IMG/VR virus record: IMGVR_UViG_3300043448_000837
Location: 1-64,000 of that record
Reading direction: 5' to 3' (one strand)
Length of the DNA: 64,000 nt
Source: a virus
In this document: positions 6,210-62,449 of the stretch, piece by piece
Numbering within the stretch: position 1 is the first letter of the stretch
Layout: each line of letters starts with the position of its first letter
Made by a program: the position numbers and the translations under genes
The notes under the pieces: model-generated
What the model was told of the DNA's origin: nothing
Seen by the model: only the letters and a program-made list of their open reading frames with translations
The model's database searches: none

Positions 6210-6235
6210 GAGTGGTGGTTACCAGATCACCACTC
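6210..6235 (-). terminator. Hairpin at the end of terL
   Basis: GAGTGGTG and CACCACTC form an 8-bp perfect stem that overlaps the terL TGA. It is followed by CTATAATCT rather than a U-run, so it may be an mRNA end-stabilising hairpin instead of an intrinsic terminator. TATAAT lies immediately after the stem (6204-6209). Confidence 0.45.
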
Positions 6236-7967
6236 ATTCGTAGCCGAGTCGTCCTCTTCCACCCCGTCTTCCGCTCACGAAAGGTGAACGAGCATCAACA
6301 CCCATCGTTGAAGCGTCGTAGTCCGGGTCGTTAATTGCGGTGTCGCCCGAGAACAACTTCTGCCGTCCTGTGCGAATTTCCCCAAAGACGGACTTATCCC
6401 CGAGCCCATCACGAAGTAAATCCCCTTTGAATCGTTTGTTTTGAATAATCGTGTCCTGCAGGTTACGATCAACAACGTCCATTTTCATTGCATAGTAAGT
6501 GAGCGCCCAAGCAAAAGCGTCCGTACTGTCGTCGTGACGAACAAACGGGAATGAGGTTAATTCTTTGATGAATGTGTCAGTCCAGTGCCCCTGAACCAGT
6601 TTAACCCGGCTGTTCTCCAGTAAAGGGCAAACGGCTTGAAGTCTCGTAGTCTTCGACTTCAACGGCCTCATCTCTTCGATCGGAACTCTCGCTTCTTTTC
6701 GAAGAACTTGAATGAGGGAGTGCCCCGAAGCTGCTTTTTCGATGCATAGAACTTTTGCCTGGTAGTATGTGTAGTTTTGCTTCACGGCTTCAACCAAGTC
6801 GGGGAAACCCCATCGACCTTTCACAATCTCTCGAATGTAAATAACAGTCGGATCTCGCATACTAATCCCAGCCACGCAAATCGCGGTTTCGTCCGCCATT
6901 TGTTTCTCGGAGAAAGCGCAGTCAGCCGCTAACCACACGACGTCGAGTGGCGGGCAATCTTCTTCTTCAATAACCTCAATCCAACTGTTCTTGACAATCT
7001 GACCTTCTGCGGCAACAGGAACGCCTTGGTAAAGCGCCGCAAATTTGAAGCTTCCCATGATCTTCTTCTGCGACTCAAGCATCGGCACAGAAAACGTCGG
7101 ATTGTCACCCCAATGCGATTCTCCAATCTGCCGCTCAAGCGGGTCAGTGCGCGGGTCTTCGCAAAGCCCTGCGATATTGATCCAACGCCAACCGAACGGG
7201 TTGTGAACTTCGTCGTAAAGACCGTCGCCTTCCATCAGAACGCCGTGCAAATCTTTCTCGTGGAAGCGAGTTGCGATAACCATCTGACAGTAGTGGTTGG
7301 TTCTTCGGGTGGACGCCTGCTCTTGCCACCAAGACTCAAGGTTGTCGAGTGCTTGTTTTGAGTCCGAAGATTTGAGCGGGTCGTCAATCACCATGGCGCC
7401 AACGCCAGGGCTGTCCATATCTGTTGTTCCGGCGGTGAAACCGGTTAGAACCCCGCCAACGGATGTGGCAAGAATGTAACCGCCGCCGACCATGTCATAC
7501 TTTGAGTCCGGTGAGAATCCAAGCCACTCAGGGAACACCCGCTTGAACTCCTTCGACTTCATCATGTGAACCACTTCGCGGTGAAATTTGAAGGAGAGAG
7601 ACGCACCGTAAGAGGCAATAACGTGCTGAGTCTTCTGATCTCGCCCGAGAAGCCACGCCAGGAACATGGTCGCAAGCATTGACTTTCCCGATCGTGGCGG
7701 GCAGGAAACAATCAATCGCTTGTATCTTCGCGTAGCAAGGTCTTCGAACGCCGAGCCAATCAGCTCGTGAAACGGGGCAACCTGCAGGTCGCCGTGCTTC
7801 ATGATGTCACAGAAAGCAAGGAAGCAATCTCGGGCAGCCTTGTACCGAAAATCCTGAATCACCATGCGTGGTGCTTCCATGAGCGTTAGTTCACGTATGC
7901 CTCGCTGGTATTTTCTCCACGAGCTGTGTTCTTCGAGCTGGCTGGCTTTCGTGATTACGGGACGCAT
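6234..7967 (-). CDS. terL: Terminase large subunit
   Basis: A 577-residue packaging motor: ATPase plus headful or site-specific nuclease. Walker A is CPPRSGKS (residues 89-96). The Walker B region is AMVIDDPLKSSDS (about residue 190). The C-terminal RNase H-like nuclease shows AADCAFSEK (about 345) and the late acidic DDSTDAFAWAL. The length and both domains are complete. It is followed by a strong hairpin and preceded by a 92-residue helical protein ending 1 bp before the start, a position where a small terminase subunit could lie. Confidence 0.95.
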   Translation of the reverse strand: MRPVITKASQLEEHSSWRKYQRGIRELTLMEAPRMVIQDFRYKAARDCFLAFCDIMKHGDLQVAPFHELIGSAFEDLATRRYKRLIVSCPPRSGKSMLATMFLAWLLGRDQKTQHVIASYGASLSFKFHREVVHMMKSKEFKRVFPEWLGFSPDSKYDMVGGGYILATSVGGVLTGFTAGTTDMDSPGVGAMVIDDPLKSSDSKQALDNLESWWQEQASTRRTNHYCQMVIATRFHEKDLHGVLMEGDGLYDEVHNPFGWRWINIAGLCEDPRTDPLERQIGESHWGDNPTFSVPMLESQKKIMGSFKFAALYQGVPVAAEGQIVKNSWIEVIEEEDCPPLDVVWLAADCAFSEKQMADETAICVAGISMRDPTVIYIREIVKGRWGFPDLVEAVKQNYTYYQAKVLCIEKAASGHSLIQVLRKEARVPIEEMRPLKSKTTRLQAVCPLLENSRVKLVQGHWTDTFIKELTSFPFVRHDDSTDAFAWALTYYAMKMDVVDRNLQDTIIQNKRFKGDLLRDGLGDKSVFGEIRTGRQKLFSGDTAINDPDYDASTMGVDARSPFVSGRRGGRGRLGYE

Positions 7968-7968
7968 A

Positions 7969-8247
7969 TCAATCCCCCGTCAGTTTCTTCAGAAGCTCTC
8001 CAACTTTCCCGTCGTACGCAACAGCAAGTTCTTGCTCGCTCTTTGAATCAACTTGGGTCAGGGCAACGATGTCCGAAGTAATTTCTCTGTGCGCTTTGAT
8101 CGCACTGTTGAAGATGGAAACGAGGTCTCGAGTGGAGCACACTTCCATCTGGTTGGCAAGCTGATCCAGAGCATCTTTCGCCACAAGAAGGGTGTCTTGA
8201 GCCAGAATCTCTTTCTGCTTGATAATGTCTTCGCGTGATTTAGCCAT
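7969..8247 (-). CDS. Small helical protein, possible small terminase or packaging factor
   Basis: A 92-residue, almost entirely helical protein (MAKSREDIIKQKEILAQ...). Its ATG overlaps the stop of the 52-residue gene (TGATG) and it ends just before terL. The position fits a small terminase subunit, but I see no helix-turn-helix motif I could name, so the role is inferred from context only. Confidence 0.7.
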   Translation of the reverse strand: MAKSREDIIKQKEILAQDTLLVAKDALDQLANQMEVCSTRDLVSIFNSAIKAHREITSDIVALTQVDSKSEQELAVAYDGKVGELLKKLTGD

Positions 8248-8405
8248 CAGTAAAGCCTCTTTCTACATTTGGAGCAACCACCTCGCGGTGGCGGGGGATT
8301 CCCCTTGTATGATACGATCTTTTGCAAGATCTTCTTTGCCTCTTCCATGTCGCCGCGCTGCACGGCGATGTGGTAACTGTTCCAAAGTTCTTGTGATGAG
8401 TCCAT
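8247..8405 (-). CDS. Short protein with CxxC tail (52 aa)
   Basis: Encodes 52 residues: a helix (MDSSQELWNSYHIAVQRGDM...), a Pro/Gly linker and a basic end with a CSKC pair. Its ATG overlaps the stop of the upstream gene (TAATG) and its TGA overlaps the next ATG (TGATG), a tight coupling that supports it being real. It may bind a metal through too few cysteines unless it dimerises. Function unknown. Confidence 0.7.
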   Translation of the reverse strand: MDSSQELWNSYHIAVQRGDMEEAKKILQKIVSYKGNPPPPRGGCSKCRKRLY

Positions 8406-9622
8406 TAACATGGCGCAATAGGACCGGGATTGCCTTCACAGGGAACGCAACCTAACTTCCACAGTGAGTTGATAGAGGCGAGCTGGAACGTATCTTCCAG
8501 AATCCACCCTTTCCCTTGAGGAGATTTAGCCACAAAGTAGAATCTGCCTTTCGGAGTCTGAATGAACGTCTCGGGGACAATTCCGATCACGGATCCGCCC
8601 TCAAGGTACAGTTGTTTTGCCTCCGGATTCAACGGGTCGATGTTTAAGAAGGTGTACGCTCCGGTAATGACCGCAAACTCACCTACGTTCATGCCCGTAA
8701 ACCATTCAGCATATTTTGAAGCCCGATCGGAAATCGGATCGGCTTTTCCTGCGACGTCATTCCACAGCTCGATCGCGTACCGCGCCAGAAACTTTCCGGT
8801 CGGCGAGTAGAAAACTTCCTCAATCGGTTCAGAGGTCTCGGCGTCCCAAACGGTCACAACTAACCTGCCATCTTCAGTATAGCTGTTGTTGCTCAAAAGA
8901 TAAATCGGTTGGTTGAGGGGATCTGGAAGGAATACCGTGTCCGGGTCGCAAACAAACACCCAGTTTCCGGACGAAGTCGCAGGATTGCTCCAACGAACAC
9001 CGTACGGGGCGGAATAGTCTTCCAGAGGCAACTTGATTCCCGTGTACCACGGAACGTAAATCTCTCCGCTTGCGGTGTCAACAACTCCGGCCAAGGGAAG
9101 GCGAGTCTCAACGTTCGGTCCCGGAAAGATTTGCCGGCAATCGCCACGTTGAACGCAAGGGTCAAGGGCAACATACGGCAGCGTTTCCTCAATCGTGAGA
9201 ACGTAAGTTTGAGTGTAAGTGTACTGAGATTCGGGACTGATACCAGTGAACAGTTCGTTTTGACACGTGAAAGGTTCGATCGTCTGCACTGACGCACCGG
9301 ACGGAACACTGCCGTTTATCGTGTTGAAAGCGCCTGCAAGAAGTTGAGTGGCGAAATCGTGACCAGAGGAGGTGAGATAGTTCTGGCAGGAGAAGTTCAG
9401 CTCGAAGCTCATACTCCGCTCGAAAACCATCGGAATGCGATTCTTGACTGTGTTTGAAGAACCCGTGTAACGCACGACGATGTTGTTAGTTTGCTGCACC
9501 ACTCCCTCGTTTTCGATCGCGTCTGCGAGGCGAAGAACATTCACACTGATTGGAATCAAGGGGGAGGCAACAAGAGCATCAACAATGAACTGCTCGATAC
9601 GGGATATTGTGTTAAGTTCCAT
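8405..9622 (-). CDS. Putative tail terminator / head-tail connector protein
   Basis: A 405-residue protein. The first about 140 residues (IEQFIVDAL..., IVVRYTGSS, then beta-rich) resemble tail-completion proteins of the Mu gp37/DUF1834 type. The remainder is beta-rich, Pro/Gly-containing and looks like an added decoration domain. It sits between terL and the adaptor gene, as expected for neck genes. The family assignment of the N-terminus is tentative; the C-terminal 250 residues are unassigned. Confidence 0.6.
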   Translation of the reverse strand: MELNTISRIEQFIVDALVASPLIPISVNVLRLADAIENEGVVQQTNNIVVRYTGSSNTVKNRIPMVFERSMSFELNFSCQNYLTSSGHDFATQLLAGAFNTINGSVPSGASVQTIEPFTCQNELFTGISPESQYTYTQTYVLTIEETLPYVALDPCVQRGDCRQIFPGPNVETRLPLAGVVDTASGEIYVPWYTGIKLPLEDYSAPYGVRWSNPATSSGNWVFVCDPDTVFLPDPLNQPIYLLSNNSYTEDGRLVVTVWDAETSEPIEEVFYSPTGKFLARYAIELWNDVAGKADPISDRASKYAEWFTGMNVGEFAVITGAYTFLNIDPLNPEAKQLYLEGGSVIGIVPETFIQTPKGRFYFVAKSPQGKGWILEDTFQLASINSLWKLGCVPCEGNPGPIAPC

Positions 9623-9625
9623 GGT

Positions 9626-10705
9626 TTACGGGAAATTCGTGTTTGAGCCGTCGATATACCAGCCGCCAGCATCGTTCGGTTGAGAAATCTGCAGCGTTCC
9701 GCCCAACTCCAGGAAATTGTTGGACGTGATCCAGTTCGGGAAGTCGTTATTCTGCCCGATTGCTCCCCAACCGATGCGGTAATCCGGGGCCTGGTCTCCA
9801 GCTGTATCGGTTGTCCAGCCTGAAAGACCTTTGCCAGAAACCGAGTTGTAGCGTTGAGGAATGCGCCAGGACCGCATAATTCCCTGAGGCGTATCAATGG
9901 CCGAGTCCCCATTCCCTGCGCGAATCGCAGTCATTCCCATCTCGGCCTGCATCTGCTTCAGAGCGGCGTCGTAATCCTTGTAGACGTCTTCTCTGCGGCG
10001 AACCGTGTCGAGATAGTAACGGGCGATTGTGAGTGCGGTGCGGCGGCGATTGCTTGTAATTAGCACCATGCCAGCCTTGCCTGACTGCTCAATGTACGAG
10101 TCAATCAGAGAGTTGGCGTCTTGAATCGCCATGTGCAGCTTCGCCACATTCACTGTCGTGGCTGCTGCGTCGTCAATGTTTGTTAGCTGAATGGCTTCTT
10201 TGAGGCCGAACGCGATAATGAAGTCGTCGGGTGAAGCACTCCTCGGGTCGGTCTTGTTGTTTGTGAGTACGCCGGAACGGTTCTGGTAAGGGAAGCCGTA
10301 TCCGCCGATGGTTTGGCCCAGGTTAGACTGAACTCGAGAGCCATCGGTTGTTTCATCCGGTGCAAGAGTGTTTCTCGCTGCAACGCGATAAAAAGCTCGA
10401 GAGGCGTTGCGTTTCTTGACAACGTCGTTCGCCGTAGGGGGAATCGGCCCGCGCAGGCAAAGGTTGAGGTCAAGAGGCGGTTCGTAGGAAACGAATGCTT
10501 GGTCCCAGGGGGTTAGAGTGCTGTCCAATCCAAGAGACACCATCGTGTCCGAAGAATAGATCAGGGTTTCCACCCCGTACTGCCCGTAATTGACGGTGAA
10601 GGAAGTGAGCGGAACCGGAACATTTGTGTCCAGTGGCGCGTCAAAGTACAGAACAACCGTCGTCGGTGTCGAAACTAGAATTTCCTTGATCTTAGGCGCA
10701 GCCAT
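9626..10705 (-). CDS. Head-tail adaptor (DUF1320-like) with N-terminal beta domain
   Basis: A 359-residue protein. Residues 1-60 form a beta-sandwich-like domain (TTVVLYFDAPLDT). The central part (about residues 150-270) looks like the Mu gp36/DUF1320 adaptor fold: an IQDANSLIDSYI helix, an RRRTALTIARYYLDTVRR helix and a YKDYDAALKQM helix. A long C-terminal extension follows. Adaptors of this family bind the portal ring. DUF1320 proteins are normally about 140 residues, so this one is enlarged at both ends. Confidence 0.65.
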   Translation of the reverse strand: MAAPKIKEILVSTPTTVVLYFDAPLDTNVPVPLTSFTVNYGQYGVETLIYSSDTMVSLGLDSTLTPWDQAFVSYEPPLDLNLCLRGPIPPTANDVVKKRNASRAFYRVAARNTLAPDETTDGSRVQSNLGQTIGGYGFPYQNRSGVLTNNKTDPRSASPDDFIIAFGLKEAIQLTNIDDAAATTVNVAKLHMAIQDANSLIDSYIEQSGKAGMVLITSNRRRTALTIARYYLDTVRRREDVYKDYDAALKQMQAEMGMTAIRAGNGDSAIDTPQGIMRSWRIPQRYNSVSGKGLSGWTTDTAGDQAPDYRIGWGAIGQNNDFPNWITSNNFLELGGTLQISQPNDAGGWYIDGSNTNFP

Positions 10706-10713
10706 CAGCTTCC

Positions 10714-11136
10714 TCAGCTATAAAGATTGGTACGAGGGTCGTTGGAGAACGGGTGGAAGTACTCACTCACCCAGAACGAATAAGCGTCTTGTGGAACTTG
10801 AATGACGTAACCGTCCCACTCCCGGTATTTGCAATTTTGAAGGTAATTCGCAGCCAACCGGAGCGGCCACTCGTCTCTCCAGTTCACTTCCCAGGAGTCG
10901 ATTGTAACAAGAAAACCTTCGATCGTGTAGTCGATTCGAGCAACGATTGAACCGCCGCGCTGCTCATCATCAGCGTAAGGCGGATTGCTATAGTCGAAAG
11001 TTTCTGAGACTCGATCGAAAATCTCCCCGTCCCACTTCACCAATAGGTAACGTAACTCACTCGGAGGATCTTCGTAGTAGAGAAAATCCTGAAAGAGCCA
11101 AGTGGGCGATTGAATTCCGGGACGACGAATTGCCAT
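10714..11136 (-). CDS. Virion-region protein with GNAT-like features
   Basis: A 140-residue protein. The order of a beta-strand VTIDSWEVNW, a helix PLRLAANYLQN, a strand YVIQVPQDAYSFWVS and an ending EYFHPF is reminiscent of a GNAT acetyltransferase C-terminal half, but no clear acetyl-CoA P-loop is visible. It lies between the spike and the adaptor. I would call it unknown with a weak GNAT resemblance. Confidence 0.55.
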   Translation of the reverse strand: MAIRRPGIQSPTWLFQDFLYYEDPPSELRYLLVKWDGEIFDRVSETFDYSNPPYADDEQRGGSIVARIDYTIEGFLVTIDSWEVNWRDEWPLRLAANYLQNCKYREWDGYVIQVPQDAYSFWVSEYFHPFSNDPRTNLYS

Positions 11137-11139
11137 AGT

Positions 11140-11943
11140 TCAAGAGGGAGGTTTGTACCAGGTGGCTTTTCCGCCGTAGGGGTTTGGGCGAGGAGAAGTT
11201 CCGTAAGCAGAGTTTTTGCTCATTTCCTTTGCCGAAGTGGGGAAAACAAAGTCCCAAATGGATTGCTCCTTGACAGGCTGTTCTGCGTCGCCACGGCTGT
11301 CGTTTGGCTGAGTTCCATCGTTTTCGCCTGCATGACCATGCGCTAAGTCAACGTGGCGGACCCAGATATAGTTGCCGTTTCGTTTCAGACAGACACACAA
11401 CCAGTCGGAGCTCATTGGTCCCCCTTCTTCAATCACGGTGCAACCGTGGTTTTCTTTGGATGCGGGCGGAAGGCTTCCTGCGGGGTATACCGGCAGCCGA
11501 ATCATCGTGCTGTTGTCCGGCATCTTAAGGTTTTTCTCTGCCTTTGAAGTCAGAAGTTGGGGGTCGTACAAGACATCTTGGAGGATGGCGTACTGGTACT
11601 CCCCGCTTGACGGTACGATGTTTACACGCTTTCCGACCAATCCTTTCGGTTGTTTCCCCTTGAACGCAGGGGAAGTGTCAATCCAATGCGATGGTTTGGC
11701 TTGTTGGCCTTCGCGCTCGGCGGAAAACTCTCCGGTGGCACCAGAGATTTGGGGGATTTCGATGTTGTGGTCGTCAAAGATGACCTTCACTCTCCCCCGA
11801 TCCAGCGGATCGTTGATATCCACAATCGTTCCACGCAGAGTTCCCCGAGGCAGTCCAGCAAACTTCATGTTCGCCTCAGTTGCATTGAGCATTGCAACAA
11901 ACTGGCTTACAAATTCAGAAGCTCTGAGTTTGGGTTGGTGCAT
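11140..11943 (-). CDS. Baseplate hub/spike protein with OB-fold domain
   Basis: A 267-residue protein. Residues about 34-75 (LRGTIVDINDPLDRGRVKVIFDD) match the OB-fold start of gp5/VgrG-type spike proteins. No long beta-helix repeats or lysozyme domain follow, so it may be a spike hub whose tip is another protein. It lies between fibre genes and the neck genes, as expected for a baseplate component. Confidence 0.72.
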   Translation of the reverse strand: MHQPKLRASEFVSQFVAMLNATEANMKFAGLPRGTLRGTIVDINDPLDRGRVKVIFDDHNIEIPQISGATGEFSAEREGQQAKPSHWIDTSPAFKGKQPKGLVGKRVNIVPSSGEYQYAILQDVLYDPQLLTSKAEKNLKMPDNSTMIRLPVYPAGSLPPASKENHGCTVIEEGGPMSSDWLCVCLKRNGNYIWVRHVDLAHGHAGENDGTQPNDSRGDAEQPVKEQSIWDFVFPTSAKEMSKNSAYGTSPRPNPYGGKATWYKPPS

Positions 11944-11945
11944 GC

Positions 11946-12200
11946 TCAGATGTCCTTACGAAACTGTGAGAATTTCGGTAAGTTTCGGGGATGGCGTTTG
12001 GGCGGAACGGGTGCAACCGGCGGAGAAATCGTTCGACCTGTCGGTTTCGGCTTCAAAGGTTCTTTTACCGTTTCAACTACTTCAACTGTTTCCGAAGGAG
12101 TTTCAACCGTTTCTTCCAAGCTAAATGTTGATTCGTCTTCCATAGTTTCAATTGTACTCGGTTCGATCTGCGAAGGTGTTTTGCGTCGTCTAGGGGCCAT
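11946..12200 (-). CDS. Low-complexity protein (84 aa)
   Basis: Basic N-terminus (MAPRRRKTPS), a Thr/Glu/Val-rich middle with repeated ETV units and a Pro/Lys-rich C-terminus. It is probably disordered. It ends 2 bp before the spike gene and starts after a GGGTAAAA motif. A linker or chaperone role is possible but not shown. Confidence 0.65.
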   Translation of the reverse strand: MAPRRRKTPSQIEPSTIETMEDESTFSLEETVETPSETVEVVETVKEPLKPKPTGRTISPPVAPVPPKRHPRNLPKFSQFRKDI

Positions 12201-12222
12201 CTGTGGGTTAAAGACTGGTAAC

Positions 12223-12230
12223 TTTTACCC
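12223..12230 (-). promoter_or_regulatory. GGGTAAAA motif (putative late promoter)
   Basis: Minus-strand GGGTAAAA, 22 bp before the ATG at 12200. Confidence 0.55.
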
Positions 12231-12275
12231 CCTCGGGGGCACACGGAAACTGTGTGCGACAGCCTTGTGGTTAGG

Positions 12276-15200
12276 TTAAGGCCCAGGCCAGATTTGTGTC
12301 GCGTCGGCATTATATTTCCAGTCGTCAACAGATTGGAACCATGACGAGGACGCAACTGGTGGCGGAACAGGCGGTCCAGGTACGGTGGAAACCACCAAAT
12401 CGAAAGTTTGAGCTGAGTTTTGGAAGCTAAGGGTAGGGGCAATTGTTGGAACATTCGATTCTGGAACTATGCTCATGGACACACTTGTCGCGGTAATCGT
12501 GGGAGGACCAATTACTGGCAAAGTGGTTGGGTTGATTTCACTGCGAGCGTAGAGACCATAACCCGGCGGGTTGTCAGCAAAGATTGGAGTTCCACCTGCA
12601 GCCAAGGGCTGAAGGAAATCTAGAGAGGAAACGTATTTGTAAGCAGCGGTTCCACCACCACCACCATACAGGCCAATTCCACTTGGCGTAATAATCACAC
12701 GCTGGTTTACCGTATCGAGACTCGCTGCGGCAGAGTAGGGGCTTATTCCGTTCACCTGTGTGAAGAAACTCACTTCATTCAGGTTCCAGTCGTAGTCAAT
12801 CAAATTCACAAGGCTTGGCCAACCAGGCATTCCAAGGTCCGAGTAAAAGTTGACGTAACTGTTCCAAATATAGAAACCAGTGGTCGAGGGTTGCATAGAT
12901 GTTGCCCAACCCGAGAAAGTCCTTGTTTCAATCGGTTGGAAAAACTCATCTAAGAGGTGAATTCTTCCGTTGCTACCTTCTAGAAGGAGATAGCCCCCCG
13001 ACTCAGGATGAAAGAGAATAGCGTATATAGAAATGCCACCAAGATCGACCGCTTGAACAACGTTTGTAAACGTTTCGTCTACCTCTACCAAAAACCGGTC
13101 GTAAGGAAGTCCATTTAGAATTCCAGCCAAAACCCAGTTTCCGTTCGGTTTTTGATCAGCGGCAATAATGCGCCAAACAGGTAGACTGTCCGGTCGCGAG
13201 AAAGAGAATCGTTTTAGGAACGAGCCATTCGTAACGTCAATTAAATTGCAGACGTGAGGTTGATACTGCTGCAACTCCGAGACAAGCATCTGAGTTCTGG
13301 CATTATTCAGTGCACGAAGTTCCCAGTTCTGTTCGTAACTGCCGTCAAGAGCTTGATTGTAAATCGTCTGACCGGAAGAGTTGAGACAAATGAAGTGGTG
13401 ATTTCCGTTGTTGTCGTCTACGACAGTTAAAACTTTGTCGTCCGGCAGTGAGTGAACCGTTTGAGAAACCGCAACCGGACCCCATTCATACTGAGTGTTG
13501 GGTGGTGAAATAGTTTTTGACCACTCCAAATTTCCAAAAATTGAGAATTTACTCAACTCTGACCCTGTGCTGTTGGCAATGAAAGAGTAGATCTCCCCTC
13601 CTGGCCCCACGGCCGAGTTGTGACTGTTGACAGCCCCTTCGTCAATCGTGCTGTAGGCTAACCAACGGTTCGCCAAATTGTTGTACAAAATGTTCCAACC
13701 TTTGGCCTCCAAGTTGTCGAAAGCGACAATAGCGGGGGCAGTCCAGTCTCCGTAGGCAGCGTTAGTTCCTAACGAAATATCGAGAATTCCGTTAAGGGCT
13801 CCGCCGGCATCAATGGAAACCAGAATGTTTTCGATGCTCTCAGCTGTAAGCGCACATTCCCGCCAAGCCACGGTGAAGTTAGTAGCTGCACAGTTGTCGA
13901 AAAGATTAGGGGGAAAGTCGGCTAGGTTTGTGCAGTTAAGCCAAGTTGCCTCAAAAATCGTGCCGTTGTCAAAGTTCAGAGCGGGGAAGGAAGTCAGGCC
14001 GGTGCAACCTTGCCAGGTTCCGGTAAATCCGAGACTTTGGAAATTATTTTGGCCCCCAAACACTGACCCTGAACTGGTATCAATCAGTGGGAAAGATGTA
14101 AGACTTGAGTTGTTTCTCCATGCCCCGTCAAAAGTTGTAACATTACTTGTGTTGAGAAGCGGGAAAGAAGTAAGACCACTACAATCCAACCAGGTGTACC
14201 CTAAAGTAGTACAACTGCTTGTGTCTATGAGCGGGAAAGAAGTAAGTGAATTACACTCTCGCCAAGTATCGTTTAAATTACCCACCGAAGACGTGTCGAT
14301 TAGTGGGAAAGAAGTCAGGGACGAGCAACGCATCCAAGCCCTATAAAGGCTGGTAGCTGAACTCGTATCCAGGGGGGGGAAAGTTTCAAGATCGTAACAA
14401 TTTTGCCAAGTTCCCGAGAAAGATGTGATACCCGAAGTATTCAGTAAAGGGAATGAAGTTAAACTTTCGCAATTTAACCACGTTCTCACTAATGAGTTTA
14501 GTGGTTGACCCGGACTACCCGGAGGTTTCAATGTTATTTGAGGGAATGATGTGAGTGAATAACACTCTCCCCATGTCTCTTCCAGATTGTAAGCATTACT
14601 GAAATCTAGTTGGGGGAATGATGTAAGACTATTGCAACCCCACCAAGCTCTAAGGAAACCCACCCCATTGCTGGTATTGATGGTTGGGAACGAGGTTAAC
14701 CCGCCGCACCCGTACCAGGTCTCATAAAAACTGAGTCCGGACCCCGTATCGATCTGCGGGAAAGAGGTCAGAGACGAGCAATTTCTCCAAGTTCTAGTAA
14801 AACCCGTGGCGGAAGATGTGTCTATAGCGGGAAAAGATGCCAGACTAGTGCAACCTTCCCAAGCCCCTCCCCCAAAACCATTTCCAAGAACTGTGGCAGA
14901 ACTGAAGTCAAGCAAAGGGAAAGACGTTAGAGAATTGCACCCCGCCCAAGTTCCCGTAAACGTGGTCCCTGATTCAATAACTGTAAACGGAAAACTGGTC
15001 AAACTGGTGCAGTTTTTCCAGGTTCGGTCGAAAAGATTGGCTGAACTCAGGTTCAGGTTTGGTTGAAAACTTGTGAGGCTGGAACAACCCTCCCACGTTG
15101 AGACGAACTCGGTTGCGTCGGCTAACTGATAGTACAGGTTTAGTGTTGCAATACTTTGCATCGCAGAGCAGCCGTCCCAGGTTCGGTAGAAGTTAACTCC

Positions 15201-46723: not shown

Positions 46724-46797
46724 TGTAATTACTATAGCGCGTTTTGCCCGTTCTGTAAAGGGTGCAAACCGCCCTGGCAGGTACGGTTAACCGCCCT
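46724..46797 (-). promoter_or_regulatory. Hairpin-promoter module 1
   Basis: Minus-strand order: GGCGGTTAACCGTACC hairpin region, GGGCGGTTTGC, TTTACA (-35, 46754-46759), 17-bp spacer, TATAGT (-10, 46731-46736), then GTG start 7 bp on. The TTTGC...GCAAA arms flank the -35 box. Confidence 0.85.
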
Positions 46798-47129: not shown

Positions 47130-47205
47130 GTAATTACTATAGCGCCTTTTGCCCGTTTTCGAAAGGGGGCAAACCGCCCTCCGAGGTACGGGAAACCGTA
47201 CCTAC
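47130..47205 (-). promoter_or_regulatory. Hairpin-promoter module 2
   Basis: Perfect 8-bp hairpin AGGTACGG-TTTC-CCGTACCT (47184-47203, containing the stop of the upstream gene), GGGCGGTTTGCCC, TTTCGA (-35, 47159-47164), 17-bp spacer, TATAGT (-10, 47136-47141), ATG six bases on. Confidence 0.85.
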
Positions 47206-47752: not shown

Positions 47753-47826
47753 GTTTTAATCATAGCTCATTTTCGCCCCAGCGAAAAGGGGGCAAACCGC
47801 CCTCCGAGGTACGGTTTCCCGTACCT
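47753..47826 (-). promoter_or_regulatory. Hairpin-promoter module 3
   Basis: Perfect hairpin AGGTACGG-GAAA-CCGTACCT (47807-47826), GGGCGGTTTGCCC, TTTTCG (-35, 47782-47787), 17-bp spacer, TATGAT (-10, 47759-47764), ATG six bases on. The loop differs from module 2, showing a conserved stem with changed loop. Confidence 0.85.
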
Positions 47827-49049: not shown

Positions 49050-49127
49050 GCTATAAGCATAGCTCATTTTGCCAGTTCTGCAAAGGGGGTAAACCGTCCT
49101 CCCAGGTACGGTTAACCGCCCTGCGCC
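49050..49127 (-). promoter_or_regulatory. Hairpin-promoter module 5
   Basis: GGCGGTTAACCGTACCT hairpin region, GGACGGTTTACCC, TTTGCA (-35, 49079-49084), 17-bp spacer, TATGCT (-10, 49056-49061), ATG six bases on. Confidence 0.8.
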
Positions 49128-49858
49128 TCAGCGAGTAGGCGAGTCAGCAGGCGGTCTACCTCCGGCCACTGGGCGCTGGGCCGGTACTTGCGCAGGCGGA
49201 CCACGTGCGACATCTCAGCTGCCAGGGCCTGGGTCCACAAGGGTTCCCCCAGCCTTTGGCGAAGGTGGGCGCACAGAGGCGCAGGGTCGCCACCTGGGTG
49301 TGAGTTGAACAACCGGTGGTAATCGCTGTGCACAGACTGAAGTAATTTACCCAAGTCGAGCACGTAAGACTGGAACAAATTTTGCTTGAAGTTAGGGTCG
49401 ATCAGAACGATGCCCCCGTTATTTTCTACAATGATGTTTTCAAGCGTCAGATCTCCGTGTGAGAACGAGGATGGTAGTGGCTCAATTTCGTCGAGGATTT
49501 CGAAAGTTCGACGAACTATATCACTGTCCGCCAGAGCGACGTGCTCTGAGTGAAGACGATCTTTGTAAGAAACCCAGTCTGCATTTCGCGTTGCTGGGAC
49601 CGTTGACCACAGAAGAATCTGGTCTACCAACGTGTCAATCAGGCGAGTCGATTCAATCTGCGTGCCGCAAACTCCTTCGACAAACTCAATATCGTACTCG
49701 GAACTGGACACGCAAATGGTTTGAGGAAGTCGAATCCCTGGTGTCAAAGTGTACCGCGAGGCAGTACGAAACCAGTCGCACTGCTCAGCGGCATCCTTAC
49801 ACTTCTTTCGTATGAAATCCCCGGAGAAATCCAGGGTCGCACCACTACTTCCCTTCAC
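49112..49858 (-). CDS. Aminoglycoside phosphotransferase-like kinase (modification cassette)
   Basis: 248 residues from the GTG at 49858, which has GGGAG 7 bases upstream; the frame could also start at TTG 49864. The APH/choline-kinase fold is seen in GSSGATL (nucleotide loop), SFSHGDLTLENIIV (catalytic loop with Asp and Asn) and IVLIDPNF (metal-binding Asp). It should transfer a phosphate from ATP to a hydroxyl of a small molecule or sugar. It overlaps the nucleotidyltransferase gene and belongs to the unit HAD-NTP transferase-kinase, next to the TET and glycosyltransferase genes. Substrate unknown. Confidence 0.85.
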   Translation of the reverse strand: MKGSSGATLDFSGDFIRKKCKDAAEQCDWFRTASRYTLTPGIRLPQTICVSSSEYDIEFVEGVCGTQIESTRLIDTLVDQILLWSTVPATRNADWVSYKDRLHSEHVALADSDIVRRTFEILDEIEPLPSSFSHGDLTLENIIVENNGGIVLIDPNFKQNLFQSYVLDLGKLLQSVHSDYHRLFNSHPGGDPAPLCAHLRQRLGEPLWTQALAAEMSHVVRLRKYRPSAQWPEVDRLLTRLLAEAQGG

Positions 49859-50558
49859 GAACAAGCTCCCGAATCCGAGCGCAATCGGCCTCGTAAGTTA
49901 GATCGCCCCAAGTTACACCCAGGGAAGAAAGCGAGATTGCCTCCCGAGTCTTGGCCATGTTGATCATATCGGTGATTTCAACCTCGCCACGATCACTCTT
50001 ACGCAGCTCACCAATCGTGTTCAAGTAACCAGCTGGAAAACGCGCGAAGCCGCAGAAGTAACGACCTTCCAGTTGGCCATGAGGTTTTTCAACTACGTAA
50101 TCTTCAATCACGGTAGCCAGCTGCAGGTTTCGCGGACTCAGTGATTTGTGCAGGAAGGTGAAATAAACTGAATTGTCAAGATCTGAACTCAGCAGAACTC
50201 GTTCTGCAATTGGCATTACCCCTTGATAGTAGTTGTCCCCAAACAATACGGTAAACGGTCCGTCAATCACACCGGCCCACGTTGTAATGGCAGCGCCAGG
50301 ACCATAGGTGTCTTCACTCTGGAAGCGCACGATCGGATCACAAATCTTTGATACTTCGTCAAGAACCGGGTGGTAGATCCGTGTCCCGTCCGTTTTCACT
50401 GCCGACCTTGAAAGTGTCAGGTAAATGTTCTCGGCTCCGTTATCCAGAGCGAACAGTGCCGCCAAGTAGGGAAGCGACATGCCATCAAACTTCTCCTCAA
50501 GTTTATTTCGGCCGAACCGAGTGCTACGACCGGCAGCAAGAATGAGTGCGTTCTTCAT
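49845..50558 (-). CDS. Sugar-phosphate/polyol-phosphate nucleotidyltransferase (modification cassette)
   Basis: 237 residues, NTP_transferase family. N-terminal LAAGRSTRFGRNKL is the nucleotide-binding signature; GPGAAITTWAGV and FGDNYYQGV supply the metal/substrate sites. The family joins a sugar-1-phosphate, or phosphocholine-like compound, to an NTP to give an activated donor. Coupled to the HAD phosphatase (ATGA) upstream and the kinase downstream. Which NTP and substrate are used cannot be told from sequence. Confidence 0.87.
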   Translation of the reverse strand: MKNALILAAGRSTRFGRNKLEEKFDGMSLPYLAALFALDNGAENIYLTLSRSAVKTDGTRIYHPVLDEVSKICDPIVRFQSEDTYGPGAAITTWAGVIDGPFTVLFGDNYYQGVMPIAERVLLSSDLDNSVYFTFLHKSLSPRNLQLATVIEDYVVEKPHGQLEGRYFCGFARFPAGYLNTIGELRKSDRGEVEITDMINMAKTREAISLSSLGVTWGDLTYEADCARIRELVREGK

Positions 50559-50911
50559 TGTGCGATTTCTTTGTATTTTGCGGAGAACTGAGCGGGTGTC
50601 ACCGCTTTGTCGTCAACGTAGTACGCCGCCCACGGTTTTCCAATCTGAATGGAATCGTAAGGCACATCGTATTTAGTGCAGAATTTTTCGATTTCCTCGA
50701 TAACTTCTTGCCTCACACTTTCGATATTTCCGTTTGAGCGCCCCATTCCACGAGCCGTATGAAGAATAATCGTCCACCCTGCCTCCTTCATTGCTCGCAT
50801 ACCCGTGATAACTTCCATCTTTGGGCGCGAGTTCTCGTAGTCCCTGTTTACCGTGATAAGGATTGTGTCGTCAACGTCGAAGACAATGGTTTTCTTTGGG
50901 TCGGGAATCAT
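50555..50911 (-). CDS. HAD-family phosphatase, capsule-biosynthesis type (modification cassette)
   Basis: 118 residues. HAD motif I is VFDVDDTI (Asp12, Asp14), motif II ILHTARG, motif III/IV IGKPWAAYYVDDKAV. The short, cap-less type occurs in bacterial capsule loci next to nucleotidyltransferases. First gene of a three-gene unit with its own promoter (module 11) and a 21-nt leader without an obvious ribosome site. Confidence 0.87.
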   Translation of the reverse strand: MIPDPKKTIVFDVDDTILITVNRDYENSRPKMEVITGMRAMKEAGWTIILHTARGMGRSNGNIESVRQEVIEEIEKFCTKYDVPYDSIQIGKPWAAYYVDDKAVTPAQFSAKYKEIAQ

Positions 50912-50976
50912 AGAGAGTCAGGAGCTGATCTAAACATAGGTCGCGAGAGCTGCAAGTAAAGGGCGGAAACCCGCCC
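50912..50976 (-). promoter_or_regulatory. Terminator-promoter module 11
   Basis: GGGCGG-GTTT-CCGCCC hairpin (50961-50976) followed by TTTACT, which can serve both as the U-tract of the terminator and as the -35 box; 16-bp spacer; TATGTT (-10, 50933-50938). Confidence 0.8.
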
Positions 50977-50982
50977 AGTTTC

Positions 50983-51807
50983 TCACACAGGAATGACTTC
51001 TGTCGTCAGAGTTTTTAGGCGAATCTCAGCGTATCGAGAAAGCCACTCGTCCTTCGTCCGTCTGGTCTTAGGTGTTGCCAGCTCAGAGAACTCAGCGCAG
51101 ATTCGCTCAACCGTCTCGTTGTTGGTTTGAAGTTTCCGTTCCAGGTCTTCGCAAGTGCCACCACCACCGGTGTGTTGCTTTGCCTTGACGCAAACGTTGT
51201 CGAACCGTAGGGTTCCCTTTCCGTGCACAGTGTGGTACAGCGACAGGAAGTAATCGTCTTTCATGCTGTACTCCGTGATTCGATCAAACGCTGGGTCGCC
51301 AGCGTAGAAACCGAAGGCGTGGCCCATAATGAACTTAAGACCCACGGTGATCTTAGGGTGGAGGAAGCCTTTGTTACGCACTGCGTAGAAACCCCAGAGG
51401 CCGACATCTCGTCGCCCGCTCATTCGAAACCCTCGCTCAATCAGCTCGGACATATTTTCCACCGAGTTTAGGCGGCTCGGGTGGTCCAGCGGCTTTTGCG
51501 TCCCGGTCAGCGGGGCAAGCAGTTCGAGTTCCTCAACGGCGCTAACATCGTCGTCAAATGAAAAAACAGCTGTTCCCTTGTCGTAATAGTTGGAAATGAA
51601 GCGACGTTGATTCGTCAATCCTTTCTCACCAACAACAATCTTGTACTGCGGGTTTGAACTTTGATATTTTTCCAACTCCTGGTCGTTGGCCACGAACAAA
51701 GTCACTCGGGACAGATCGACGTCGGTTTTTTCAAGATAATTCAGAGTCAGTTTTCGGACGCCGTCTGGGCGCCCGTAAGTTGGTATGGCAATCTGGTAAT
51801 CAAGCAT
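50983..51807 (-). CDS. TET-associated glycosyltransferase (TAGT)
   Basis: 274 residues from the ATG at 51807, inside the last codons of the TET gene (8-bp overlap). GT-A-like features: IAIPTYGRPDGVRKLTL, GLTNQRRFISNYY, VFSFDDDV (metal-binding DDD), MGHAFGFYAG, then MKDDYFLSLYH and CVKAKQHTGGGGT. This combination matches the glycosyltransferases found with TET/JBP dioxygenases in phages, which add a sugar to 5-hydroxymethylcytosine in DNA. Coupling to the dioxygenase strongly supports that role; the sugar is unknown. Confidence 0.88.
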   Translation of the reverse strand: MLDYQIAIPTYGRPDGVRKLTLNYLEKTDVDLSRVTLFVANDQELEKYQSSNPQYKIVVGEKGLTNQRRFISNYYDKGTAVFSFDDDVSAVEELELLAPLTGTQKPLDHPSRLNSVENMSELIERGFRMSGRRDVGLWGFYAVRNKGFLHPKITVGLKFIMGHAFGFYAGDPAFDRITEYSMKDDYFLSLYHTVHGKGTLRFDNVCVKAKQHTGGGGTCEDLERKLQTNNETVERICAEFSELATPKTRRTKDEWLSRYAEIRLKTLTTEVIPV

Positions 51808-53164
51808 TGGGAGTAACGTCGGGTTGTCCTTTGATGTTGGTGTTGGAGCAGCGCTCCATCTTTTGAAGCTTCTTGTACTCATCCCACTCAGGGCTGCACC
51901 ACATTCCGGGGAAGGAACCGTTCCACTTCGGCTCACCTGTTCCTCGCTCAGGGTGGTTGGTTGTAACCCATTCCATGAAGGATCGTCGGCAAGCTTCACA
52001 TTCCAGGTCATCCAGGGTAACGATTGCGTCCCGTGAGTAAAACACAAGAACAAGGTTCTCAGCATCCTCGCTCAGTGGAACGAATGGAGTTTGACCGTGA
52101 ACAAAGCCCTGGTTGTCTCCAATCAGAATGTCACCGTGGCGCATGTGGAAACCAAGGCCAAGTTGAGGCATCACAAAGTCAACGCCATCGTAGGAACCCC
52201 GGTCCATACAAACGAGAGCGGCCACAGCGTCCTTTGCGTTCTGACCGTCGTAATGCCAGCAGGTGGAAAAGTTGTAGTTACAGGTGATTGAGGAGAAGAC
52301 CGTGTCAAACAGGCTGTAACGGGTATCTGCGATATCCTTGTACCTATTTCGCAGGATCCCCCACTCCCTCGGAAAGAGGTCTTTTGTCAGAGAATCAACT
52401 TCCTTGTAGAAAGGTGCGAAAGAAGCGAAGTCGTCGTACCGCTCCATCGTCGGGGCAGTCAACCGGGCAAAGGGTGTTCTCCCTGAGCGAGTGATTGTGC
52501 CTAGAACGGCTGAGAAAACTTTCTGCCCCCGAGGTTGCTTCGTTACGTAACGTGCTTTCCCTGCGATCGCAGCCGCTTTCCGGTCCCCAGAGGGAGCCCA
52601 CTCTCGAACCAACCAATTGTCGAACCACGCCAGTTTGGCAGCATTTCTGTTCAAGATGGCCGTCTGTTTCAGGTCAAACGGCGTGCTCTTTTTTCGGACG
52701 AGGCTGTCCCACTTTTCAATCTCGTCGAGATCCACTAAACCATCCGTTTCGACTTTTCCTACAAAGTAGGTTGTTCTAGAAACGCGAGTATCAGCGGCGA
52801 CGATTGCTCTGGCTTCTTCCAAGTCGGCCACAAGGCCCTTCACAGCCTTACTGAAGAACACTTTCTGACCTTCGGTTAGCCGGATTTCCACGTTCGTGGT
52901 GATTTCCGAACCAGCGGCGTTCCCGCGTTGATCTGACAGAAGGGACTTACAGGCCCAGCGCCAGTACTCAAATTCTTTGCTGTTGGGTCGGATATTGGCT
53001 GCTGCTTTCAGACCTTTTTTGCGAAAAGCGACGGCAAGTGAACCATCGGGGCGGTACACGTTGCAATCTTCATCGATAAGTTCAAGGAAATCCGTCGATG
53101 AAGGCACTCCACCAAGTCGTTTGTCGTCAAACGGAACTAGCGCGTCTAAGTAAATTTCTCTCAT
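51800..53164 (-). CDS. TET/JBP-family 2-oxoglutarate, Fe(II)-dependent DNA dioxygenase
   Basis: 454 residues. The double-stranded beta-helix core is at about 240-385: NYNFSTCWHYDGQN (His304, Asp306), GDILIGDNQGFVHGQ (His356 as the second histidine) and LVLVFYSRD (Arg378, binding 2-oxoglutarate). Phage TETs oxidise 5-methylcytosine in DNA to 5-hydroxymethylcytosine for further decoration. The N-terminal about 200 residues (VYRPDGSLAVAFRKKGLK...) are typical of phage TETs. A cysteine pair (CEACR) follows the core. A cytosine-5 methyltransferase, needed to supply 5mC, is not in the window. Confidence 0.9.
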   Translation of the reverse strand: MREIYLDALVPFDDKRLGGVPSSTDFLELIDEDCNVYRPDGSLAVAFRKKGLKAAANIRPNSKEFEYWRWACKSLLSDQRGNAAGSEITTNVEIRLTEGQKVFFSKAVKGLVADLEEARAIVAADTRVSRTTYFVGKVETDGLVDLDEIEKWDSLVRKKSTPFDLKQTAILNRNAAKLAWFDNWLVREWAPSGDRKAAAIAGKARYVTKQPRGQKVFSAVLGTITRSGRTPFARLTAPTMERYDDFASFAPFYKEVDSLTKDLFPREWGILRNRYKDIADTRYSLFDTVFSSITCNYNFSTCWHYDGQNAKDAVAALVCMDRGSYDGVDFVMPQLGLGFHMRHGDILIGDNQGFVHGQTPFVPLSEDAENLVLVFYSRDAIVTLDDLECEACRRSFMEWVTTNHPERGTGEPKWNGSFPGMWCSPEWDEYKKLQKMERCSNTNIKGQPDVTPNA

Positions 53165-53275: not shown

Positions 53276-53890
53276 TTACTGCGTGTATTCGCAGAGGATA
53301 TCGGACTCTTGGTCAAAGGCGCAGTTGAGCAATTTTCGCATTTGGCGGGCGACATCAAGGTCTTTACCGAGGTAAAGAGTCGTTTTCAGAAGGTCGCTGT
53401 ACACAACCGGTTGCTCTTTGGTGATTTCCTCGTCATAGAAGTTGACTCGGTAAGCAACGCCATTTGATTCGCAAAGTTCGTTTATTCGCTTTGCGTGCAG
53501 AATGAAATTCTCTCCGTGACCCTTGATTCCATCATCAAGATTCTTCATGTCGAGATAAGCGTGAAGCATCTCGTGAAGCAAGGTGCTGCGAACTTCCAGG
53601 GGATCTTTCGCAGCGTGGCGGGCGAGTTTGATTTCCCCAGTTCCTCCGTTATTTGGCTTGTAAGTCCCCCACTTAGTTCTGTAACGACCTTCCCACTTGA
53701 GACGCGGATACGAGTTCCAGGTCTCTCCGTTTTCGTCGGTGCGAGAGACAACCTTGGGGACCGGGAGTTCTCCGTTGAAATACTTCGCATTGAACTCGGC
53801 GTACAACTCGCCAAGGTCATAAATCGCGCAAGGGTTGGGGCAGAACCGTTCAAGAAACGAGTTTGAAACTACCGTTTTGAATTCCGTCAT
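53276..53890 (-). CDS. SprT-like zinc metalloprotease
   Basis: 204 residues from the ATG at 53890 (TGATG overlap with upstream stop). The zinc site is LLHEMLHAYLD, with a third ligand in GHGENF; before it a beta part (YNGEL-like YFNGELPVPKV) as in SprT/Spartan proteins. Host Spartan-type enzymes remove DNA-protein crosslinks; in a phage it may process proteins on DNA, but the substrate is unknown. Confidence 0.87.
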   Translation of the reverse strand: MTEFKTVVSNSFLERFCPNPCAIYDLGELYAEFNAKYFNGELPVPKVVSRTDENGETWNSYPRLKWEGRYRTKWGTYKPNNGGTGEIKLARHAAKDPLEVRSTLLHEMLHAYLDMKNLDDGIKGHGENFILHAKRINELCESNGVAYRVNFYDEEITKEQPVVYSDLLKTTLYLGKDLDVARQMRKLLNCAFDQESDILCEYTQ

Positions 53891-54132
53891 CAGTCGCGAG
53901 CGGAGTGGATGGACTCGTTGATCTTCGCGGCGTAGGCCGTGGGGCTCATGCCGGTGACGGCGGACCTCCACTCCAGGAAGGCCACCTCGGCCCGGTCGCA
54001 GAGGTCTTCGTACTTGGCGATGGCATGCGGTGCCCAGGGGCTGGCCATGGCACCCTGCTTGTGGTAGAAGGCCAGCTTGACCTGGGTGGCTTCTTCGTAG
54101 AGGGCTTTGAGTTGGGTTTGAACGTCTTTCAT
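53890..54132 (-). CDS. Hypothetical protein (80 aa), leaderless
   Basis: Helical protein starting MKDVQTQLKALYEEATQVKL. The ATG is six bases after CATAAT (module 6). Coupled to the SprT-like gene. Function unknown. Confidence 0.75.
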   Translation of the reverse strand: MKDVQTQLKALYEEATQVKLAFYHKQGAMASPWAPHAIAKYEDLCDRAEVAFLEWRSAVTGMSPTAYAAKINESIHSARD

Positions 54133-54206
54133 GCTTTAATTATGGCTCATTTTGTCGCGTTTGTAAAGGGGGCAAACCGCCCTCCCAGGTACGGTTAACC
54201 GCCCTC
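54133..54206 (-). promoter_or_regulatory. Hairpin-promoter module 6
   Basis: GGCGGTTAACCGTACCT region, GGGCGGTTTGCCC, TTTACA (-35, 54162-54167), 17-bp spacer, CATAAT (-10, 54139-54144), ATG six bases on. Confidence 0.87.
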
Positions 54207-54456: not shown

Positions 54457-54530
54457 GTAATTACTATAGCGCCTTTTGCCCGTTTTCGAAAGGGGGGCAA
54501 ACCGCCCTCCCAGGTACGGTTAACCGCCCT
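54457..54530 (-). promoter_or_regulatory. Hairpin-promoter module 7
   Basis: Same layout as modules 1-6: GGCGGTTAACCGTACCT, GGGCGGTTTGCCC, TTTCGA (-35, 54486-54491), 17-bp spacer, TATAGT (-10, 54463-54468), ATG six bases on. Confidence 0.87.
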
Positions 54531-62378: not shown

Positions 62379-62449
62379 GAATTAACTATAGCGCCTTTTG
62401 CCCGTTTTCGAAAGGGGGCAAACCGCCCTCCCAGGTACGGTTAACCGCC
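62379..62449 (-). promoter_or_regulatory. Hairpin-promoter module 9
   Basis: GGCGGTTAACCGTACCT region, GGGCGGTTTGCCC, TTTCGA (-35), 17-bp spacer, TATAGT (-10, 62385-62390), ATG six bases on. Nearly identical to module 7. Confidence 0.87.

Follow-up and report, generated by a model that had tools for sequence, protein, structure and literature searches.

The phage pathway that starts from 5-methylcytosine (5mC) comprises a C5-methyltransferase, a TET dioxygenase and a TET-associated glycosyltransferase (TAGT), and characterised phage TETs act on 5mC. In phage TET-TAGT systems (PF12851 and PF20691) the TAGT gene directly follows that of the TET, as it does in the locus described here, which differs by the addition of a putative donor-synthesis unit and in that no C5-methyltransferase was found. 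Solitary TAGTs are common in phages, occurring in 288 of 753 glycosyltransferase-bearing phage genomes (PMC13216743), and the present cassette would tie one TAGT group to a dedicated unit of this kind. Donor synthesis by phage genes has been proposed for RB69 (Mosigvirus), whose DNA is arabinosylated and whose nucleotidyltransferase-phosphotransferase ORF53_52c is the proposed source of UDP-arabinose (PMC6024577, PMC8056088), and for the Shewanella phage Thanatos a UDP-xylose pyrophosphorylase is proven (PMC12838424).

The window studied here is a stretch of 64,000 nucleotides (positions 1 to 64,000 of IMG/VR virus record IMGVR_UViG_3300043448_000837), and its source is a 114 kb contig, a genome fragment of a cyanophage that carries psbA and has Synechococcus phage S-CBWM1 as a relative. 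Since megablast with 25 kb of the window gave no match among 50,697 phage records, relatives were sought at the protein level. Five adjacent open reading frames on the minus strand (53164-49112) encode a TET, a TAGT, a HAD phosphatase, a nucleotidyltransferase (NTPT) and a kinase (Table 1). All five were verified, together with the overlap of exactly 8 bp between the TET stop and the ATG of the glycosyltransferase, as a preliminary description of this DNA had stated. HAD and NTPT overlap by 4 bp, and the kinase has two candidate starts, TTG 49864 and GTG 49858, the second suggested by the S-CBWM1 gene.

Table 1. Features of the five-gene block and its spacer (window coordinates).
Feature	Position	Strand	Details
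TET/JBP-family Fe(II)/2-oxoglutarate dioxygenase	51800..53164	-	454 aa; PF12851, S-CBWM1 gp8 ortholog
TAGT (TET-associated glycosyltransferase), GT-A type, DDD motif	50983..51807	-	274 aa; PF20691, phrog_842
Terminator-like hairpin	50961..50976	-	6 G-C pairs, then TTTACTT; inside GT-HAD gap
Small HAD-family phosphatase	50555..50911	-	118 aa; DxD motif D12/D14; TIGR01689 relative
RmlA-like nucleotidyltransferase (NTPT)	49845..50558	-	237 aa; LAAGRSTRFG and GDN motifs
APH/choline-kinase-fold small-molecule kinase	49112..49864 (or 49858)	-	~250 aa; HGDLTLEN, IDPN motifs

The catalytic motifs of the encoded proteins are intact. The TET matches Tet_JBP (PF12851) at 7e-14 and 51.8 bits, above the curated cut-off of 34.9, and is 36% identical over its full length to gp8 of S-CBWM1. 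The core residues attributed to it in the preliminary description (His304, Asp306, His356 and Arg378, corresponding to the HxD...H iron triad and the 2-oxoglutarate-binding arginine) are invariant in an alignment of 15 diverse phage TETs. The TAGT scores 38.3 bits against PF20691 (1.7e-9; curated cut-off 27.5), matches phrog_842, beta-glucosyl-HMC-alpha-glucosyltransferase (1e-10), and shares 62% identity with gp9 of S-CBWM1. Its previously claimed DDD metal motif is indeed present as Asp85-Asp86-Asp87, with positions 86 and 87 invariant in 11 TAGTs. Searches of PDB sequences with the first TET profile, the TAGT profile and the kinase profile returned nothing usable.

Profile and structure matches agree with the earlier assignment of the three following genes to a HAD phosphatase, an NTP transferase and an APH-like kinase. 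The HAD resembles TIGR01689, "capsule biosynthesis phosphatase" (3.6e-26), at 91.6 bits versus a subfamily cut-off of 162, which by sequence makes it a relative of the EcbF/BcbF capsule phosphatase and not a member; its nearest solved structures are 1xpj (1e-23) and 9iqw. The NTPT falls slightly under the cut-off of NTP_transf_3 (1.9e-5), while its S-CBWM1 ortholog lies above it (2.9e-10). With a PDB sequence match to 3hl3 (3.9e-10) and an AlphaFold model of moderate confidence (pLDDT 71) matching RmlA and UDP-Glc pyrophosphorylases at E ~1e-9, its predicted closest relatives in sequence and fold are the RmlA/UDP-glucose pyrophosphorylases. The kinase is just above the cut-off of APH (PF01636, 4e-5), and the best PDB folds for its AlphaFold model (pLDDT 87.5) are maltokinase 4u94, fructosamine-3-kinase and APH. 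Maltokinase is an anomeric sugar kinase, and this best fold match, like the RmlA-like NTPT, speaks for a sugar donor; against it, the same fold also covers choline and ethanolamine kinases, and the substrate of the kinase is unreadable from sequence.

The same five genes lie in the same order in S-CBWM1 (gp8-gp12), as direct orthologs with the same predicted activities, and their conservation down to 36-62% protein identity indicates that the block is more than a product of chance. The order TET-TAGT-HAD-NTPT-kinase is found in S-CBWM1 and 15 IMG/VR contigs, this one included, with 36-100% identity. Seven to eight of them have the TET about 2 kb off, the other four genes remaining together. 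The Stenotrophomonas maltophilia phage DLP6 (AAY80_028-030) has the same five predicted activities in another order, TAGT-HAD-[NTPT-kinase fusion, 563 aa]-TET, and contig L230 carries TET-HAD-NTPT-kinase-TAGT. In three further contigs (L024, L231 and L232) no TET or TAGT stands beside the unit, their place being taken by a T4-type DNA alpha-glucosyltransferase (AGT): L024 has AGT-HAD-NTPT-kinase with 1 bp between AGT and HAD, and L231 and L232 have a HAD-kinase fusion, a CTP_transf_like enzyme (PF01467) replacing the RmlA-type NTPT, and then AGT. Among closely related phages every readable copy of the three-gene unit adjoins a DNA glycosyltransferase. The outcome named as refuting in the preliminary description, a unit consistently found apart from TET and TAGT, did not appear among these close relatives, AGT substituting where TET/TAGT are missing. 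Contig G014 (201 kb) keeps two TETs and lacks both the TAGT and the three-gene unit, a joint absence that also speaks for their link. This recurrence of one enzyme set in unrelated phages, under other gene orders, looks like the trace of a real DNA-decorating pathway and not of a chance neighbourhood, one type of unit having been combined with DNA glycosyltransferases of two unrelated kinds. As a point against a donor-making role, the HAD-NTPT-kinase unit is dispensable for TAGT activity as such, since many TET-TAGT phages are devoid of it and the T6 enzyme works with ordinary UDP-glucose.

Taken together, the five genes probably form a post-replicative DNA hypermodification cassette, in which HAD, kinase and NTPT would make a nucleotide-sugar that the TAGT transfers onto a hydroxymethyl base produced by the TET. 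In the scheme that we infer, the TET would act on a pyrimidine of the phage DNA, hydroxylating its 5-methyl group, and the TAGT would join a sugar to the new hydroxyl. The donor would arise by removal of the phosphate from a sugar phosphate of host metabolism (HAD), transfer of a phosphate to the freed sugar, with the anomeric carbon as the probable site (APH-fold kinase), and conversion of the sugar 1-phosphate to an NDP-sugar (RmlA-like NTPT). Each of these reactions is a prediction, as are the relative order of HAD and kinase, the nucleotide, the target base and the sugar, which need not be glucose, UDP-glucose being already supplied by the host.

The likeness to RB69 comprises the same HAD family, enzymes of the nucleotidyltransferase and phosphotransferase types, a DNA glycosyltransferase and a donor proposed to be made by phage genes. 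In RB69, ORF051c adjoins the fused ORF53_52c, whereas NTPT and kinase are separate genes here; the RB69 transferase is of the GT-B type and the TAGT of the GT-A type; and hydroxylated cytosine is made there at the nucleotide level, whereas the TET is predicted to act on DNA. RB69 also has an arabinose 5-phosphate isomerase, and none is encoded here: a sugar isomerase (PF01380, SIS) was considered as a cassette member and rejected, none being found in 14 records including the complete S-CBWM1. Similarity to the RB69 proteins is strong for the HAD only (64.8 bits by profile, 34% identity with ORF051c), which counts against the parallel; in an eight-protein comparison the kinase is weakly similar to the RB69 phosphotransferase (24% over 193 aa, 3.5e-8), and the NTPT shares just the superfamily of ORF53_52c.

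The base on which the TET would act was approached through the enzymes expected to prepare it. No C5-methyltransferase (PF00145) was detected in this contig (a fragment), the complete S-CBWM1, DLP6 or the other records of the TET/TAGT set, and the same search does detect divergent viral C5-methyltransferases in L231-L234. A profile built from three of these (L231, L232 and L234) had no match in this contig or S-CBWM1, where a motif scan gave one chance match only and palindrome under-representation singled out no C- or T-containing sites. The lack of PF00145 in the searched records weakens the 5mC to 5hmC route assumed in the preliminary description and makes 5mC doubtful as the starting base; the cassette casts doubt on 5mC as the universal substrate of phage TETs. 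The candidates for the TET substrate are thymine and host-made 5mC.

Somewhat short of an even chance is given to a route in which a host methyltransferase, or else a phage enzyme from a family so far unrecognised, puts 5mC into the phage DNA and sequence-specific glycosylated 5hmC is the product. The T-even phages connect the TAGT family with hydroxymethylcytosine, and the residue three positions after the HxD aspartate, a base-contact position, is an asparagine both in these TETs and in human TET2, a 5mC enzyme weakly alignable to the TET of this locus. However, the known C5-methyltransferase family was found in none of the records of the TET/TAGT group, and a dedicated multi-gene cassette that leaned on where the host methylates would be useless in many hosts.

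A little less probable, and compatible with the cassette proposed above, is that thymine (5-methyluracil) is converted to 5-hydroxymethyluracil and glycosylated to a base J-like product, which needs no methyltransferase. Besides the PF00145 results, this is favoured by the absence of the thymidylate-synthase-type/dCMP hydroxymethylase family (PF00303), which belongs to the T-even hydroxymethylcytosine pathway, from 22 of 23 records, this contig, S-CBWM1 and DLP6 included. The exception, Cr30, which has a PF00303 protein, also offers support, its TET being clustered with an amino acid:DNA transferase (PF18724) of a family known from thymidine hypermodification. The TET2-like asparagine, the action of characterised phage TETs on 5mC and the possible supply of 5mC by a host methyltransferase argue against thymine. 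If thymine is the target, the cassette would resemble the trypanosome base J system (JBP1/JBP2 and JGT), which pairs a TET/JBP enzyme with a glycosyltransferase on DNA without a methyltransferase; that system differs in its glycosyltransferase family and in using glucose, and the base in the phage is a predicted one. A full phage counterpart of base J, in which the TET hydroxylates thymine and the TAGT adds a non-glucose sugar whose NDP form comes from the adjacent HAD, kinase and NTPT, with neither methyltransferase nor modified-nucleotide synthase, is a speculative combination that we regard as rather unlikely.

The preliminary description had proposed that the three-gene unit builds an activated phospho-sugar or phosphocholine-like donor with which the glycosylated base is decorated. 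Its tie between the unit and DNA glycosylation within a hypermodification pathway is supported; the phosphocholine-like decoration is the less likely reading and was rejected as first choice. Spelled out, that proposal has the TAGT add host glucose and the unit build a second donor (a phospho-sugar, or a CDP-choline- or CDP-polyol-like compound). The kinase fold includes choline/ethanolamine kinases, LicC-like enzymes lie within the NTPT superfamily, and the CTP_transf_like family found in L231 and L232 includes glycerol-phosphate and ethanolamine-phosphate cytidylyltransferases. We nevertheless consider a second donor improbable: no second transferase is conserved beside the unit, which in L024 comes straight after a single AGT, and the kinase scores 14.2 bits against Choline_kinase (PF01633), not reaching the cut-off of 29. 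As the NTPT is nearest to RmlA/UDP-glucose pyrophosphorylases and a DNA glycosyltransferase is the sole adjacent transferase, the unit more likely makes the NDP-sugar donor of that enzyme, which is also the simpler reading.

That the unit modifies a surface glycan and adjoins TET-TAGT by chance, the alternative first left open, is very unlikely for the phage copies and was rejected, for although bacterial relatives of the kinase occur, alongside genes for HAD and NTPT, in loci of polysaccharide type, as does the very distant copy in the "viral" contig L235, in at least four separate arrangements the unit stands with DNA glycosyltransferases, which represent two unrelated folds, and no O-antigen-type acceptor or flippase genes were seen beside the phage copies. 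Bacterial capsule/LPS sets (TIGR01689 relatives), in which the same three enzyme types lie side by side and serve surface polysaccharides, are presumably the evolutionary source of the phage unit.

S-CBWM1 and DLP6 are cultured phages in which the modified base could be sought directly. Their genes are annotated as SNF2 protein, hypothetical proteins, capsule phosphatase and thymidylyltransferase, and the literature searched gave no description of either set as a DNA-modification cassette; for DLP6, 18 enzymes have been tried in restriction of its DNA. New sugar-decorated bases would bear on how phage DNA withstands restriction and CRISPR, and their pathways would be possible sources of DNA-labelling enzymes.

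The spacing between the glycosyltransferase and HAD genes is 71 bp in this phage, whereas they overlap by 4 bp in S-CBWM1. The hairpin within this gap may divide transcription of the block in two, but is only suggestive, as terminator-like sites are about as frequent in this region as chance would give. In third-position G+C the five cassette genes resemble the core genes.

The five genes of the cassette, encoding a TET/JBP dioxygenase (TET), a TET-associated glycosyltransferase (TAGT), a small phosphatase (HAD), an RmlA-like nucleotidyltransferase (NTPT) and an APH-fold kinase (KIN), are all real and intact. The TET core residues listed in the preliminary description (His304, Asp306, His356 and Arg378) were confirmed by a sequence check, and the 8-bp overlap reported there between the TET and TAGT genes holds on the coordinates. 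In Pfam searches TET (PF12851, 7e-14) and TAGT (PF20691, 1.7e-9) exceeded the curated cut-offs and KIN (PF01636) passed just over its own, while NTPT scored just under the cut-off in the window copy and well over it in that of Synechococcus phage S-CBWM1. HAD is akin to the EcbF/BcbF capsule phosphatases (TIGR01689) and related to PDB 1xpj/9iqw. NTPT is closest in sequence to RmlA-type glucose-1-phosphate thymidylyltransferases (3hl3, 3.9e-10) and, in a structure model of moderate confidence, closest in fold to RmlA and UDP-glucose pyrophosphorylase; the good KIN model (pLDDT 87.5) has an APH/choline-kinase fold, with maltokinase as top match.

Positions of features in the window and in other viral loci
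Feature	Locus	Position	Strand	Remark
TET	window	53164-51800	minus	ORF intact
TAGT	window	51807-50983	minus	ORF intact
HAD	window	50911-50555	minus	ORF intact
NTPT	window	50558-49845	minus	ORF intact
KIN	window	49864/49858-49112	minus	ORF intact; two candidate starts
SprT-like gene	window	53276-53971		directly upstream of TET
CCGTACCTGGGAGGACGGTT copies	window	46767-46786, 47172-47191, 47795-47814, 49092-49111, 54175-54194, 54500-54519, 62421-62440	minus	0-3 mismatches per copy
HAD	DLP6 (L005)	5895/5901-6275		unannotated, 124-126 aa
AAY80_029	DLP6 (L005)	6235-7926		563 aa
TET cluster	Cr30 (L006)	7491-13964		
R2K-clade ATP-grasp	L020	5896-6660		PF14243 4e-20
R2K-clade ATP-grasp	L042	12616-13380		
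Tandem TETs	L016	1746-4943		
HAD-KIN fusion locus	L231	1582-5444		
HAD-KIN fusion locus	L232	6623-10734		
HAD, KIN, NTPT locus	L234	5791-12319		

The window record, a 114-kb viral fragment, has dozens of genes in common with S-CBWM1, whose genome is complete and circular (capsid 66%, portal 64% and terminase 58% identity), as well as psbA, and its phage is therefore a cyanophage of the S-CBWM1 group. Products gp8-gp12 of S-CBWM1 are direct orthologues of the five window genes in identical order (TET 36%, TAGT 62%, HAD 39%, NTPT 52% and KIN 46% identity). Since the upstream SprT-like gene is also common to both phages (gp6 in S-CBWM1, annotated as ‘putative transcription elongation protein’), the two cassettes reflect vertical inheritance and not two acquisitions; it precedes TET in contigs L020 and L042 as well. 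The window TAGT and HAD genes are separated by 71 bp holding a terminator-like hairpin; those of S-CBWM1 overlap by 4 bp. The S-CBWM1 TET (MG450654 gp8) and other phage TETs carry the misleading label ‘SNF2 DNA repair protein’.

Scans of 2.9 million viral contigs for the three-gene unit HAD-NTPT-KIN found it in 15 IMG/VR contigs of the window's group (window included, one other being 100% identical), with TAGT immediately preceding HAD in every one reaching far enough upstream; one additional contig begins within NTPT. In contigs L014-L020, TAGT-HAD-NTPT-KIN stay contiguous despite the displacement of TET to ~2 kb upstream, beyond intervening exonuclease and ATP-grasp genes. The ATP-grasp gene found near TET in relatives is of the R2K clade (the L042 copy was likened to that of L020 by eye); its product could attach an amino acid or a peptide, and this might add one more step to the decoration. 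Tandem TET paralogues occur within single phages (L016, L017, L042-L044), with best identities to the query TETs of 59% and 44%, and in L042-L044 they come with neither TAGT nor the three-gene unit.

Other loci arrange these genes differently. The Stenotrophomonas phage DLP6, which is in culture and belongs to the T4 superfamily, has the order TAGT (AAY80_028), HAD, AAY80_029, TET (AAY80_030). The third product was named a ModA ADP-ribosyltransferase (PMC5349666); contrary to that label, its sequence reads as a nucleotidyltransferase at the N-terminus (NTP_transf_3, PF12804 2e-8) followed by an APH-like kinase at the C-terminus (weak APH match plus HGDLHFAN/IDPRG motifs). Contig L230 has a short TET, HAD, NTPT, KIN and TAGT, in that order. 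In L024, an 8-kb contig with neither TET nor TAGT, HAD-NTPT-KIN begins one base past a DNA alpha-glucosyltransferase (phrog_2888 1.6e-34, PF11440 8e-6), with psbA alongside. In contigs L231 and L232, HAD and KIN are fused, a CTP_transf_like protein (PF01467) replaces the RmlA-type enzyme, and a T4-type DNA alpha-glucosyltransferase (PF11440 5e-11) is accompanied by a divergent C5-methyltransferase (PF00145 2e-18); L234 has HAD, KIN, a radical-SAM gene, NTPT, a glycosyltransferase-like gene and a C5-methyltransferase. The methyltransferase-like genes of these three contigs show the motif GENAP where ENV is usual, and no TET was found within the stretch read. The 201-kb G014, with two TETs but no TAGT or NTPT, is a loss case. 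Co-occurrence in related phages, proposed earlier as a check, thus ties the three-gene unit to DNA glycosyltransferases of two unrelated folds, the exception being L235, a very distant viral match among glycan-type genes.

The five-gene set very probably serves DNA modification and, granted this, there is a good chance that the neighbouring glycosyltransferase receives its donor from the three-gene unit; both propositions together are somewhat favoured. HAD would strip the phosphate from a sugar phosphate, freeing a sugar that KIN would turn into a sugar 1-phosphate and NTPT into an NDP-sugar, whose sugar TAGT would move onto the hydroxymethyl base produced by TET. This is the most likely working, employing all five genes and no extra transferase. 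In phage RB69, whose DNA is arabinosylated, ORF53_52c (nucleotidyltransferase and phosphotransferase) and the isomerase ORF055c were proposed to make UDP-arabinose (PMC6024577), and the module genes show RmlA, APH(3') and PNK-phosphatase similarity (PMC8056088). The HAD profile of the window group matches RB69 ORF051c, which adjoins ORF53_52c, at 64.8 bits; the RefSeq label of ORF051c, ‘phosphoheptose isomerase’, is misleading, and phrog_1238 bears the same name. However, the likeness of the window KIN and NTPT to their RB69 counterparts is weak or superficial, so the cassette is proposed to work like the RB69 module, not to be that module, and it lacks the isomerase that RB69 has. In phage Thanatos, a UDP-xylose pyrophosphorylase, experimentally shown, serves pentose-modified cytosine (PMC12838424).

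As to the target base, the C5-methyltransferase that the preliminary description suggested seeking elsewhere in the genome was not found in the 114-kb contig, complete S-CBWM1 or DLP6, nor in other records of the TET/TAGT type, of which one search covered 50; several exceed 130 kb, but most records are fragments. This negative is meaningful, since the identical search picks up divergent viral C5-methyltransferases in L231-L234. TS-type hydroxymethylases were absent from the records examined, Cr30 excepted, and ThyX, which S-CBWM1 and most of its long relatives have, accounts for thymidine supply only. Thymine and host-made 5mC therefore remain as candidates. Thymine requires no further enzyme, and the Cr30 TET clusters with an amino acid:DNA transferase (PF18724 1e-52). 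Host-made 5mC is suggested by the Asn three residues past the HxD aspartate in window-group TETs, as in human TET2 (HRDLHN), a residue that we take to have a role in base contact; the TETs of DLP6, Cr30 and most others, however, have Asp there. The Cr30 cluster also includes a dATP/dGTP diphosphohydrolase, a TAGT-like gene and inositol-1-phosphate synthase, and is possibly a locus for hypermodification that involves an unusual polyol. A thymidylate-synthase-family gene is also present in Cr30.

Taken one by one, TET, TAGT and nucleotide-sugars made by phages are already known. To our knowledge, and within the literature covered, there is no description of their union as a conserved cassette, of the recurrence of that cassette in several gene orders and alongside the T4-type enzyme, or of the missing methyltransferase. 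Finally, CCGTACCTGGGAGGACGGTT occurs seven times in the window, with none expected by chance; the copy at 49092-49111 lies immediately past the KIN stop codon, and the repeat is possibly a regulatory element.
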